Shown in pieces: positions 18,645 through 21,688 of a stretch of DNA of 64,000 bases; position 1 is the stretch's first letter; every line of letters begins with the position of its first letter. Under the pieces are notes generated by a model. The model made no database searches. It saw nothing but the letters and a program-made list of their open reading frames with translations, and had not been told where the DNA came from. The DNA is from Polynucleobacter sp. 71A-WALBACH. Its GTDB lineage: Bacteria > Pseudomonadota > Gammaproteobacteria > Burkholderiales > Burkholderiaceae. Location of the stretch: contig NZ_JACVOP010000001.1 in NCBI RefSeq assembly GCF_018882365.1, positions 848,449 to 912,448 of the forward strand, read 5' to 3'. Made by a program: the position numbers and the translations under genes.

Positions 18645-19070
18645 CTAAGGCAGTGGCTTTTTAACATAAACACCATGCAGTAAAAAGATGGCAAAGAATG
18701 CCAGGCCAATTACCCAGTGTGTTGTGATGACTGTATCTCGAATTTCTTCAGGGCCGTAATACAACAAGGCGCCCGATATTAATAAGGTAGTTAAAAAAGC
18801 CAACTGGCCCAGTCCACTCCATAACTTTCTTTTGGATTTCAGGCCCGCTTTAATGTGAAAAGGTAAGACTGAGCCTAAAGCCATCGTAGCTATCATGGCG
18901 GCAACCCCATGCCACATCAAAATCGAGTGGGCGCCCAGCACAGTGCGTTCAATATGAAATTCATGGCCGAGTAAGTAGGCTGTACCAGTAAGAGAGCAGC
19001 TCAACATGCCAGTTAGGACGAAAGGTCTTTGCCATGCCGGCATCTTACCGAGGCGACTAGTATTTTTCAT
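18645..19070 (-). CDS. Four-helix membrane protein, possible cytochrome b-type partner of the flavin operon
   Basis: A 141-aa protein with four predicted helices. Histidines sit in or near membrane segments (His48 and His54 in the second, His118 and His132 in the last), a pattern compatible with b-type heme ligands; heme binding is an inference. The start codon overlaps the ApbE stop (ATGA), so the gene is translationally coupled to flavin transferase and FMN-protein genes. A membrane electron carrier feeding a periplasmic flavoprotein is the natural reading. No specific family is recognised with confidence. Confidence 0.7.
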   Translation of the reverse strand: MKNTSRLGKMPAWQRPFVLTGMLSCSLTGTAYLLGHEFHIERTVLGAHSILMWHGVAAMIATMALGSVLPFHIKAGLKSKRKLWSGLGQLAFLTTLLISGALLYYGPEEIRDTVITTHWVIGLAFFAIFLLHGVYVKKPLP

Positions 19071-19894
19071 ATGGTGGGGGTGTTAGGGATTCTGATTGCT
19101 TGGGCAGAAAAATGCTTCAAGCAGGGGTGGTGGATATTTTTGGTGATGCTGATCACCTTGGTTAAGGCATCTGCATAGACGCATTCATTTGCAATGACTG
19201 AGTAAGACTCTTCAAACTCAATATGCTCATGATTAAGAGGATTTATTAAATAACTTTGCGAATTGGCATCGCGCTTTGCAAAGTAGAGGCTGCTAGTTGC
19301 AATCGCACCCGTCTGCATGCTACCAATCTGGATAAGTTCATGGGGATTAAATGGATTACGAATTTGAATATCTTGTGCGCGATCTCCAAAGACTCGTATA
19401 TCGCCACCTGCATTGACTGATCCAACGCTAATCTTATGAGCTTGTAGAATTTCAATGGCCTTATCAACTGCATACCCTTTAGCGATGCCACCAAGATCAA
19501 GACAGAGTGGTAGCTGAGAGCGAACCAGATTTTCTTCAATAAAGTCTAGATCTTCAATGCCTCCGAATGAGTGATCGCCTAGACTGAAATGATTAGGCAG
19601 AAGTCCCGCTTCTACTAAGCGATGCCCAACTCCGCAATTAAATACCCCTTGAGACTGAAGATAAATCTCCTTGGAGATGGCAAGTACTCTAGCGGTCCAG
19701 GGATGAATACAAACTGGCTCTAGATAAGATCTGGCATTAATTTGGGAAAGCTCACTATCTGGATGATGAAAACCCATTAAAGACTGCACTTTTTCAATAG
19801 CCAAAAAGGCCTCGCTCAGAGCCTGAGAAGATTGCGCATCATCCTCAATCATGATTTCTACGAAGGTGCCTAAGAGCGGTTTGCAGCGAATCAT
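19067..19894 (-). CDS. apbE: FAD:protein FMN transferase (ApbE)
   Basis: A 275-aa ApbE-family protein. It has the start MIRCKPLLGTFVEIMIEDD, the central LDLGGIAKGYAVDKAIEIL and SVNAGGDIRVFGD, and a C-terminal ADALTKVISI segment. ApbE attaches FMN covalently to Thr/Ser in target proteins such as NqrC, RnfG and other FMN_bind proteins. The target here is very likely the FMN_bind protein encoded immediately upstream, whose stop overlaps this ATG. No obvious signal peptide is visible at this start, unlike many periplasmic ApbE proteins; an upstream start would intrude further into the neighbour. Confidence 0.88.
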   Translation of the reverse strand: MIRCKPLLGTFVEIMIEDDAQSSQALSEAFLAIEKVQSLMGFHHPDSELSQINARSYLEPVCIHPWTARVLAISKEIYLQSQGVFNCGVGHRLVEAGLLPNHFSLGDHSFGGIEDLDFIEENLVRSQLPLCLDLGGIAKGYAVDKAIEILQAHKISVGSVNAGGDIRVFGDRAQDIQIRNPFNPHELIQIGSMQTGAIATSSLYFAKRDANSQSYLINPLNHEHIEFEESYSVIANECVYADALTKVISITKNIHHPCLKHFSAQAIRIPNTPTI

Positions 19895-20445
19895 TTTGCT
19901 TTTAGGGCTAAGGCCTGATTTTTCAAGGTAATGTCGTATAAGACTGCAACGCGCTTTACACCGTCGGTGAGATGCTTGCAGGAGAGGGTTGCCCCACCAA
20001 TATTCTGAATATCTTGGTTGAGCTTGATTGGATCAGCCGCTGTCTTACCGATGAACTGGTTTCGCCACTGAACTTCACCTACTTCATAACCATAGGACTC
20101 TACATAGTCTAGGATCTCGATTCCAGTTACTGCGCCTGATGGACTCAGTGCAACAGCATAGGTAATCATTTCGTGTTTACCAACTACCTCATCTACGATG
20201 AACCAACTTCCATCGGCCGCTTTCCAAATTCGGTCTCCTTGAAAAGGATGGCGAATGCTAGAAGCGGAGCGCATTTTGTCTTGTAGTTCATCGGTGATGA
20301 TGATGGGATTTTTAGTAAGTGATTTATTGGGTATGAGTATCTTTTGAGCTTGTTCAACTGATACATAAATCTTGGCATGCGCCACTATTGGTGTCGTGAC
20401 TGCGGTTAGACCAATGATGAATAGGGGGTTGGGTTTCCAATACAT
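19891..20445 (-). CDS. FMN-binding domain protein (NqrC/RnfG-like, periplasmic)
   Basis: A 184-aa protein with a signal peptide (about residues 1-24, ending VAHAKIYVS) and a C-terminal FMN_bind domain. The flavinylation motif is read as NIGGATLS, with Thr153 in the place of the FMN-bearing Thr of the usual SGAT/TGAT motif; the residue three before Thr is Gly rather than Ser or Thr. Upstream segments VALSPSGAVTGIEILDYVESYG and WRNQFIGKTAADPI are typical of the fold. The protein should sit in the periplasm and carry electrons on covalent FMN added by the adjacent ApbE. Confidence 0.82.
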   Translation of the reverse strand: MYWKPNPLFIIGLTAVTTPIVAHAKIYVSVEQAQKILIPNKSLTKNPIIITDELQDKMRSASSIRHPFQGDRIWKAADGSWFIVDEVVGKHEMITYAVALSPSGAVTGIEILDYVESYGYEVGEVQWRNQFIGKTAADPIKLNQDIQNIGGATLSCKHLTDGVKRVAVLYDITLKNQALALKAK

Positions 20446-20480
20446 AGCTTGAATTCGTTGGCTTAAGTAGGTTGTATAAA

Positions 20481-20660
20481 TTAATTAGCTAGCAGCGCAT
20501 TAGCCTGAGAGCAAAGCTCATCAAGCTCTTGATTGCTTTCGTTTAGCTGAGCTAAGGCCTCGAACATCATCAAGGCCCGTTCTCTCGCAGTTACACAGTG
20601 GGTGGACTGAAATTTAATCAGGTAAATGAGTGCTGCCATTAATAAATTTTGCTTTTCCAT
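20481..20660 (-). CDS. Small hypothetical protein (59 aa) inside the Fur-linked flavin operon
   Basis: An ATG at 20660 preceded by AAGGAAACC opens a 59-codon frame that starts MEKQNLLMAALIYLIKFQS and ends in an acidic helical stretch (NESNQELDELCSQANAL). It lies 33 nt after the outer-membrane protein stop and 35 nt before the FMN-binding protein start, so it fits neatly in the operon. There is a short hydrophobic N-terminal segment and two cysteines (positions 22 and 50). No family is recognised. Confidence 0.6.
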   Translation of the reverse strand: MEKQNLLMAALIYLIKFQSTHCVTARERALMMFEALAQLNESNQELDELCSQANALLAN

Positions 20661-20693
20661 GGTTTCCTTAAAATGAAGACTGCGAGAGATTGT

Positions 20694-21608
20694 TTAGTTA
20701 AGTGGGAAACCGACTTTAACGATGAATTCATTGACTGAGTGGCTATCCCAAACGCGGGCATTGGAGCACTCCGCGGTTCCATCACCCATGCAGGTATTGC
20801 CCTTAAGCTGATAGCGCCAAGCTCCAGTGACCCACCAATTTTTTTCTGCATAGTGCAAATTGGGACCAACAAAAGTTGCCCTTTGTACTTGATTTTGTAG
20901 GTTGTAGCTAGAGTAGTCATTGTGAAAGCGAGCTTCAACACCACCTGACCACTTGGGCGCAAATCGATAGCTTGCTCCCACTAAGAAATCGAGCATTGAC
21001 TCTGGGACATTGCCATTGCCGACAAACTTCAATTGCTCATTTGCCACAACTACGTTTCCAGCCAAAACTAACTTGTCATCTATGAAGTTAGATTGCAGTA
21101 GTAAACGTGCCTCTATCTCATTCTTATTCTTACCAATGGTTGGCTCTAAATAGAGTCCCACGCCTACTGGAGAGGTAACTGGATTGGTTATTCGGTAAAT
21201 TGCCTCCAGTGACCCGCCTTCAATGCCACTCTTTCTGTAAGGTGAGGCTGGATTATGTGATTCCGGGACAGGTTGTCCTCCTGTGCATGAGGGGCTATCG
21301 CCACATGCCTCTGGGTTGGTGTAATTTTGATTTGCGTTGACGTAATAGGCATTGAGATAGCCGGCCAACTGAAAATCGTTAGTTACTCCATATTCCAGCT
21401 CAGAACGAGAGAACCAGGCGTTATATGACCCTGCAGCTTGCTGCTTATTCAGTTGTAAGCGCTGTTCAAACTCTAGCTTTCCTTTTGGCTGGAGATCTAG
21501 GGTGTAGATCCAACCAAATGCACCTTCACCCGCATTGGCGAAAGAGAAGTGTAGGGCTGTAGCCAGCAGGGCGGCAAACAGGGCTATTCGTTTGATAGTC
21601 AGTTTCAT
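20694..21608 (-). CDS. Outer-membrane beta-barrel-like protein (DUF6662-like)
   Basis: A 304-aa protein with a signal peptide (MKLTIKRIALFAALLATALH onward, cleaved after SFANA). The mature part begins GEGAFGWIYTLDLQPKGKLE and shows the alternating strand pattern of a barrel (KLEFEQRLQLNKQ, AWFSRSELEYGVTNDFQLAG, ATFVGPNLHYAEKNWWVTG). I believe it belongs to the DUF6662 group of uncharacterised outer-membrane proteins. It is the first gene after overlapping Fur-box-like sequences, so it may be an iron-related outer-membrane component. Confidence 0.72.
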   Translation of the reverse strand: MKLTIKRIALFAALLATALHFSFANAGEGAFGWIYTLDLQPKGKLEFEQRLQLNKQQAAGSYNAWFSRSELEYGVTNDFQLAGYLNAYYVNANQNYTNPEACGDSPSCTGGQPVPESHNPASPYRKSGIEGGSLEAIYRITNPVTSPVGVGLYLEPTIGKNKNEIEARLLLQSNFIDDKLVLAGNVVVANEQLKFVGNGNVPESMLDFLVGASYRFAPKWSGGVEARFHNDYSSYNLQNQVQRATFVGPNLHYAEKNWWVTGAWRYQLKGNTCMGDGTAECSNARVWDSHSVNEFIVKVGFPLN

Positions 21609-21639
21609 TGTGATTGTGGGTTGGTTGATAAAAGTAATT

Positions 21640-21688
21640 GATAATGATTCTCAATATACAGCAAATGAGAATTATTCTCAATTGAGAA
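21640..21688 (-). promoter_or_regulatory. Cluster of Fur-box-like operators
   Basis: Three overlapping elements lie upstream of the flavin operon. The stretch 21640-21658 matches the 19-bp Fur consensus at 15 positions. 21666-21680 is a perfect 7-1-7 inverted repeat (TGAGAAT-T-ATTCTCA), two changes from the Fur 7-1-7 model. 21675-21688 (TTCTCAATTGAGAA) is a third perfect palindrome sharing a half-site with it. The nearest start codon is that of the outer-membrane protein at 21608; the DUF3820 gene is divergent at 21757. Confidence 0.78.

Follow-up and report, generated by a model that had tools for sequence, protein, structure and literature searches.

A five-gene operon in a 64,000-nt stretch of the genome of Polynucleobacter sp. 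71A-WALBACH (the window), a member of a common freshwater genus, is predicted to be an iron-starvation operon for extracytoplasmic ferric reduction that feeds FeoAB, a reading to which we assign a probability of roughly 0.72. The five minus-strand open reading frames (ORFs) run from 21608 to 18645 and encode, in this order, a DUF6662 outer-membrane barrel-like protein, a 59-amino-acid (59-aa) protein, an FMN_bind protein as predicted carrier of flavin mononucleotide (FMN), the transferase ApbE, and a 141-aa four-helix membrane protein, for which we use the working name 4TM. The junctions between the genes measure 33, 35, −4 and −4 nt. A preliminary description of this DNA had rightly recognized five tightly packed minus-strand genes, but had counted only three junctions as ATGA overlaps or gaps of about 35 nt, whereas all four qualify. 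The features of the locus are as follows.

21666..21680, minus strand: Fur box 1, TGAGAATAATTCTCA, a perfect TGANAATNATTNTCA match overlapping the −35 element
21639..21653, minus strand: Fur box 2, TGAGAATCATTATCA, a perfect TGANAATNATTNTCA match 27 bp from box 1 and abutting the −10 element
21653..21681, minus strand: sigma-70-like promoter TTGAGA-17-TATATT (−35 at 21676–21681, −10 at 21653–21658), with 10 of 12 consensus matches
20694..21608, minus strand: DUF6662 outer-membrane barrel-like protein (PF20367), 304 aa, with a hydrophobic N-terminal signal region
20481..20660, minus strand: 59-aa protein lacking a signal, no Pfam or NCBIfam model
19891..20445, minus strand: FMN_bind protein (PF04205), 184 aa, predicted to be exported and to carry covalent FMN
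19987..19989, minus strand: codon of Thr153 (IGGATLS), the predicted FMN attachment site from its invariance in alignments
19067..19894, minus strand: ApbE (PF02424), a flavin adenine dinucleotide (FAD):protein FMN transferase with no visible signal peptide
18645..19070, minus strand: 4TM, predicted diheme cytochrome b from four invariant His and the structure model

In the mechanism that we propose, Fur-Fe2+ bound to the tandem boxes would block the promoter in iron-replete cells, and the operon would be expressed upon iron starvation. The 4TM protein would draw electrons from a donor that is presumably the quinol pool and pass them through two bis-His hemes, one held by His54/His118 near the periplasm and the other by His72/His132 near the cytoplasm in the putative pairing, to the FMN that ApbE would place on the FMN_bind protein of the periplasm, at Thr153. 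Once reduced, this FMN would hand its electrons to periplasmic Fe(III) chelates, and the Fe2+ would be imported by FeoAB, while the DUF6662 barrel would most likely pass the ferric substrate across the outer membrane. We infer the heme, the covalent FMN, the quinol donor, the ferric acceptor and the function of the barrel. Flavin-heme electron transfer by the operon products is very probable from their sequences, and ferric iron is likely to be the main acceptor. The iron control and extracytoplasmic flavin electron transfer of the preliminary description agree with the Fur boxes, the invariant His and Thr residues and the iron-gene neighbours described below.

Fur boxes at the operon promoter

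The two Fur boxes are 15-bp inverted repeats that cover the putative promoter, and both match perfectly the pattern TGANAATNATTNTCA, which we take to be that of a Fur box. In a whole-genome pattern scan, the 2.33-Mb genome contained just two perfect matches, both at the operon promoter, and the reversed-pattern control gave 0 in the same genome. Promoter-like sites as a class are not enriched in the region (2 seen versus 6.1 expected). For the genus, identical operons were merged, which reduced 83 loci to 69, and the 61 loci with a barrel start call were scanned. In 60 of these 61 distinct loci, the 260 nt preceding the barrel gene contain a site with at most one mismatch (perfect in 42), and most loci have a second site 27–30 bp away, often with one or two mismatches. 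The upstream regions of the 61 loci held 47 perfect sites in 15,860 bases, versus 0 in the 608,946 other bases of these loci, the window being represented by 6 kb on either side; since the loci are related, these counts measure conservation and are not 61 independent trials. Whole genomes of the genus gave 103 perfect sites in 61 genomes versus 10 for the reversed control, with seven genomes having none. The palindromes near the Fur consensus that had been noticed directly upstream of the operon are two perfect boxes, conserved in this position across the genus. The genome has a single gene of the FUR family, whose product scores above the curated threshold for a ferric uptake regulator (171.8 versus 146 bits), and the operon is almost certainly under Fur control, as predicted from sequence.

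Outside the genus, the barrel loci showed 7 Fur-like sites with at most one mismatch in 8,400 upstream bases versus 1 in 150,055 bases elsewhere (Poisson 5e-12, with relatedness ignored). Fur-like sites also precede some related operons in other families whose upstream genes differ, and perfect Fur-like sites lie ~2.8 kb upstream of the FMN_bind gene in L247, L251 and L252, where they precede CCP_MauG-like genes. In a separate set of loci (L219, L222, L225, L226, L230 and L235), a one-mismatch Fur-like site is found ~1.3 kb upstream of FMN_bind at a nearly constant distance; the gene behind this site reads, by eye, like a quinone oxidoreductase in L222.

The predicted flavin-heme core

The four His residues of 4TM (His54, His72, His118 and His132) are kept in every one of the 62 sequences aligned, of which 58 come from other genera, and 29 aligned relatives share only 21–33% identity with the window protein. 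For the genus we used length-limited alignments of 58 (4TM), 64 (FMN_bind), 59 (barrel) and 25 (59-aa) sequences from the 69 loci, and among the 58 genus sequences of 4TM, two of the four His were lost only in the frameshifted L075. The 4TM model (predicted local distance difference test score, pLDDT, 74) contains helices at 14–37, 47–78, 80–105 and 108–135, both termini lie inside according to the charge pattern (by eye), and the four conserved His sit on helices 2 and 4; therefore, two bis-His hemes are suggested, and because helices 2 and 4 are parallel, the probable pairs are His54 with His118 and His72 with His132. The alignment and the model together suggest that 4TM is a cytochrome of the diheme-b type. 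Among its relatives, 12 of 30 match prokaryotic cytochrome b561 and 11 of 30 match DUF4405 (best 7.6e-7) at E ≤ 0.01, NCBIfam gave stray single matches only, and the window protein itself scored 14.9 bits with DUF4405, below the cut-off of 26.7. Profile searches gave no match to PepSY_TM either in 4TM or in the genome, and the genus-level 4TM profile matched sequences of solved structures only at E ≥ 0.11. A crude ratio of nonsynonymous to synonymous changes (non/syn), counted over single-change codons, was 0.66 for the 4TM gene, a value that may be inflated because only window-length sequences were compared, without realignment.

A VIA-align comparison of the 4TM model gave 6g94_A at Z 10.2 (root-mean-square deviation 3.9, 130 residues aligned) and 5oc0 at Z 9.6 (3.4, 130), with designed four-helix bundles scoring equally. 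Hydrogenase cytochrome b, superoxide oxidase, formate dehydrogenase N and b561 thus appear amid designed four-helix bundles of like Z, and a cytochrome family was not assigned from this comparison; FoxB (7ABW) was absent among the matches listed. Divergent 4TM genes with neither FMN_bind nor ApbE were also seen (L070, 1193–1573; L072, 6153–6533), the latter followed by a gene for a kelch-repeat protein.

The FMN_bind protein of the window matches PF04205 (E 6.2e-9), and the profile of its family matches the RnfG structures 7zc6_G (E 8.7e-10) and 9eri_G. The FMN-attachment Thr, Thr153, is invariant in the 64 genus sequences and in 60 of 60 sequences of the order-level set. This Thr ends a GAT that is preceded by Ser, Gly, Thr or once Ala: the window lineage has GGAT, others SGAT or TGAT. 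The family thus carries a motif of the [S/T]GA[T/S] type, from which the GGAT of the window lineage departs at the first place. As the four His of 4TM and the FMN-attachment Thr are invariant, we propose a chain leading from a cytochrome b to FMN. A hydrophobic N-terminus was found in 117 of 120 distinct FMN_bind sequences and an A-x-A in 101 of them, with no twin-arginine (RR) in the first 15 residues, and the protein is predicted to be exported; here and for ApbE, start codons were our own calls and export was judged by hydropathy only. An SCKH in the FMN_bind protein was considered as a heme site and dropped, since several relatives have SSKH.

ApbE is the only one matched in the genome (PF02424, E 2.1e-36, 126 bits versus a cut-off of 25.6), and the conserved family positions are kept order-wide. 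Neither an export nor a lipidation signal was seen on it: 12 of 113 distinct sequences pass the hydropathy threshold used for FMN_bind, among the examples listed mostly through the LGT region itself, and in 111 of the 113 the [LMA]GT motif lies a median of 7 and at most 24 residues from the start.

The linkage of these three genes extends well beyond the window. A search of 61 genomes of the genus detected the 4TM gene in 46, and most genus loci keep the order barrel-(59-aa)-FMN_bind-ApbE-4TM between the same neighbours. Conservation of the gene order in related genomes, a point that had been set beforehand as a test of the preliminary description, is thus observed. Broken or shortened frames occur in the operons of L069, L075, L085 and L092. 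Among 399 genomes of the order, including the genus itself, the barrel profile matched in 28 and the 4TM profile in 64. We examined 60 stretches from outside the genus, of which 58 contained a 4TM gene; on the same strand within 4 kb, these 58 loci have FMN_bind in 54 cases, ApbE in 47 and the barrel in 19. Some of these loci are ordered 4TM-FMN_bind-ApbE, so the linkage survives rearrangement, and of 10 4TM matches from beyond the order, 7 have FMN_bind, ApbE and 4TM together. Gene neighbourhoods thus mark FMN_bind-ApbE-4TM as a core that is conserved both within the order and outside it, with differing outer-membrane partners.

Outer-membrane partners and the genomic iron context

DUF6662 was assigned to the barrel protein at 37.6 bits versus a cut-off of 27 (E 2.3e-9), with a match covering only positions 213–278 of the 308 in the profile, and 13 of 13 sequences in the order-wide barrel set match DUF6662 at E ≤ 0.01. 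The model of the barrel is all-beta and of low confidence (pLDDT 48), too poor to judge pore size or fold. The barrel gene has the lowest crude non/syn count of the five (0.10). The protein does not look like a TonB-dependent receptor, having 304 aa and only the DUF6662 match and a sub-cut-off Autotransporter match. That it serves as the entry route for the ferric substrate is, in our judgement, an even bet. Two further candidate features of the barrel were rejected. A DxxxGAS at residues 207–213 was considered as a sign that the barrel is itself flavinylated like DUF3570, but the A varies (L076 and L078 read GFT and GVT, and other residues occur order-wide), so that no attachment motif is seen; and four Cys that are invariant in the 59 genus sequences are missing from most order-level relatives.

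Five DUF6662 loci were found outside the genus (Pfam, 369 genomes of the class), and three of them have FMN_bind and ApbE beside the barrel. In loci that lack DUF6662, the gene before FMN_bind often encodes some other likely outer-membrane protein: in L244 and L246 it scores above the cut-off for Porin_O_P, elsewhere this position is taken by proteins that have a signal region and a coiled coil (alike by eye), and a CCP_MauG di-heme protein precedes FMN_bind in L236 (Pfam), with L239, L247, L248 and L251 alike by eye. Another group of cassettes has no neighbour of the outer-membrane type. As a separate observation, the cassettes of L236, L239, L247, L248, L251 and L252 open with a CCP_MauG-like and a coiled-coil porin-like protein in place of DUF6662 (by Pfam in L236 only, by eye or gene length in the rest).

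The 59-aa ORF evolves like a coding sequence (crude non/syn 0.39 over 23 distinct sequences); its protein has no match in Pfam or NCBIfam. An intact copy is present at 25 of the 69 distinct genus loci, and in L068 the gene stands without a preceding barrel gene. Weak relatives were found in six other genomes. Two of them (L283 and L284) adjoin hemP and tonB (Pfam) as well as an exbB that was recognized by eye or scored below the cut-off; in L282 the neighbours read, by eye, as tonB, exbB and a porin-like gene; and that of L286 adjoins genes for FTR1, a cupredoxin and OprB (Pfam). The neighbourhoods of L281 and L285 give no clear iron gene, L281 having a one-mismatch Fur-like site ~220 nt upstream. 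These neighbourhoods, which had not been sought, point to iron apart from the Fur boxes, and proteins of the 59-aa family may serve more generally in the order as small partners in the uptake of iron.

Second copies of the operon in at least two genomes adjoin a ferritin-family gene, which is divergent from the copy (L065, 4811–5260; L066, 3285–3740). Elsewhere in the genome of strain 71A-WALBACH, one-mismatch Fur-like sites start 127, 55 and 55 nt before the HiPIP gene (L117, 1501–1936), tonB and feoA, respectively. The feoA gene is followed by a putative feoB (by eye), and its box extends into a 19-bp palindrome-like stretch (by eye). The tonB gene is followed by that of a TonB-dependent receptor, whose score of 211 bits with a siderophore-receptor model is just under the cut-off of 223.5, and four TonB-dependent receptors in the genome are over the Pfam cut-off. 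Fur, FeoA, TonB and TonB receptors are thus present by sequence and feoB by eye. In Pn. asymbioticus, feoAB and tonB rise under presumed iron limitation, and FeoAB-type ferrous uptake is the only route named, according to the one transcriptome study that we found to treat iron uptake in the genus (PMC6629928). In the window, the operon is flanked on one side by an arsR-type regulator and a YgaP-like gene and on the other by genes for a QSregVF_b protein and an endonuclease; these lie outside the operon, on the opposite strand or beyond the promoter.

Competing readings and known systems

Several observations weigh against ferric reduction for FeoAB. The operon itself contains no iron transporter. 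One-mismatch sites in the same genome barely exceed the control (11 further sites versus 7 with the reversed pattern), so those of feoA, tonB and HiPIP rest on their positions. The source on Pn. asymbioticus states that this species is unable to use the ferric iron of its medium, and HiPIP moved there in the opposite direction to feoAB (PMC6629928). The window 4TM has no Pfam family over a curated cut-off, and its model gave nothing at E ≤ 0.001 with Foldseek, that is, no confident fold match. The system is dispensable, because the 4TM profile finds nothing in 15 of the 61 genus genomes, 11 of the 15 being ≥90% complete and ≤5% contaminated. In L129 and L132, no FMN_bind gene lies within 1.5 kb of DUF6662. 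Of the 21 barrel loci from other genera, just 7 carry a Fur-like site with no more than one mismatch in the 400 nt upstream, and many non-genus loci lack any in the stretch fetched; their operators may be spelled differently, or they may be controlled in another way. The similarity of the six relatives to the 59-aa protein is weak, with E-values of 5e-5 to 9e-4 per genome in 250 genomes searched, for which ~0.25 matches at E ≤ 0.001 are expected by chance. At last, ApbE has no visible export signal in the sequences examined, while its FMN_bind substrate is predicted to be exported. A periplasmic location was found essential for ApbE in an early study, and cytosolic ApbEs exist, one of them for a soluble fumarate reductase (PMC12052999). 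Either FMN is attached before export, in which case Sec would have to tolerate the modified chain, or ApbE would have to enter the periplasm by some other route; we consider attachment in the cytosol about an evens chance.

The boxes could in principle belong to a regulator of the Zur, Mur or PerR type rather than to Fur, and the operon would then not concern iron; 7-1-7 boxes are similar across the FUR family, but the one member of this family in the genome exceeds the curated threshold for Fur itself and feoA carries a like box, and we regard this reading as extremely unlikely. The barrel invites another proposal, in which it would hold FMN_bind in a conduit across the outer membrane, so that insoluble or humic-bound iron is reduced outside the cell, in a flavin analogue of the porin-cytochrome conduits known as Mtr. 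The position of the barrel gene as first in the operon, its lowest non/syn count and the different porin-like gene that precedes FMN_bind in several relatives would all suit such a conduit. However, a single FMN per protein cannot alone span the outer membrane, exchange for porin-like proteins fits a diffusion channel better, and the barrel model is too weak for pore size, which makes the conduit distinctly unlikely. It differs from periplasmic ferric reduction only in the site of reduction and partly overlaps with it, and our estimates for the readings need not sum to one. Similarly doubtful is a version for nutrition in which the signal-less ApbE would attach FMN in the cytosol before export of a barrel-docked FMN_bind protein, unlike in characterized periplasmic systems, and quinol electrons would pass through heme and flavin to iron at or beyond the outer membrane.

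The acceptor itself might be something other than ferric iron. An iron-controlled reductase for heme, copper, quinones, or oxidized protein thiols or methionine, whose substrate a neighbouring diheme peroxidase-like protein would share, could account for the CCP_MauG gene in the L236 cassette (Pfam; some others by eye), and hemP beside the 59-aa relatives could indicate heme. Yet the Fur boxes and the associations with ferritin, FeoA and FTR1 favour iron, and among the scanned neighbours, which are a minority, no copper or sulfoxide-reductase family was found except the cupredoxin by FTR1 in L286; we hold this reading to be very unlikely. Alternatively, the flavin protein would spare iron by replacing cytochrome c or HiPIP as a carrier in respiration or redox repair. 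Fur control fits this equally well, the same genome has a HiPIP gene with a one-mismatch Fur-like site, and flavinylation has been suggested to be advantageous in iron-poor settings (PMC8238504). On the other hand, the membrane partner seems to require two hemes, as judged from the four invariant His, the operon holds an outer-membrane protein, and four of the six 59-aa relatives sit with uptake genes, so that iron sparing appears unlikely.

If ferric reduction for FeoAB is the correct reading, a Fur-controlled ferric reductase operon bears on the statement, in PMC6629928, that Pn. asymbioticus cannot use the ferric iron of its medium. It would also provide a likely job for an unnamed diheme cytochrome subfamily, tie the uncharacterized DUF6662 barrel and a small 59-aa family to iron, and pose the problem of how an ApbE that lacks a signal comes to flavinylate a protein that is exported.

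The window FMN_bind protein shares its domain and the GAT attachment motif with RnfG/NqrC; unlike these systems, the operon has no Rnf or Nqr genes, and a membrane cytochrome replaces the ion pump. FrcB, likened here by description only, stands alone, unlike the operon-encoded 4TM, and we know of no partner flavin protein for FoxB. Both FoxB and FrcB are four-helix heme membrane proteins that reduce ferric chelates, as proposed for 4TM, and FoxB has PepSY domains, of which 4TM has none (PMC8891985). In Bradyrhizobium, FsrB serves FeoAB by reducing siderophore iron within the periplasm (PMC10760861), which resembles the role proposed here.

Closer in regulation are the iron-repressed PepSY-like/DUF2271/DUF4198/ApbE clusters, which, like this operon, combine Fur or iron control with genes for ApbE, for a flavinylated protein that is exported and for an electron-transfer protein of the membrane, and which differ in having a PepSY_TM membrane protein and a DUF2271 flavin carrier (PMC8238504, PMC3751524). 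A Fur-controlled flavinylation cluster has been reported in Caulobacter and Shewanella, and the Caulobacter ApbE/DUF2271/DUF4198 cluster, CC_3059-3063, is among the iron-responsive, Fur-regulated genes (PMC3751524, PMC8238504). Closer in composition are the DUF4405/FezC cytochromes of Huang et al. 2024, small heme-b membrane proteins encoded with apbE and a flavinylated protein, which have four conserved His like 4TM and a proposed role in electron transfer from the membrane to flavin (PMC11334425). They are described with six helices versus four in the 4TM model, and their partner is often a flavodoxin-type domain rather than FMN_bind (PMC11334425). DUF6662 does not occur in the text of PMC11334425, nor in any paper that we found in the open-licence PMC literature, and neither does the gene set; the view of the preliminary description that no characterized system has this exact gene set holds within that literature. 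The general kind, ApbE/FMN_bind with a membrane cytochrome tied to iron, is known (PMC8238504, PMC11334425), and the present gene set with its unnamed cytochrome subfamily is, within the literature searched, an unreported form of flavinylation-based electron transfer.

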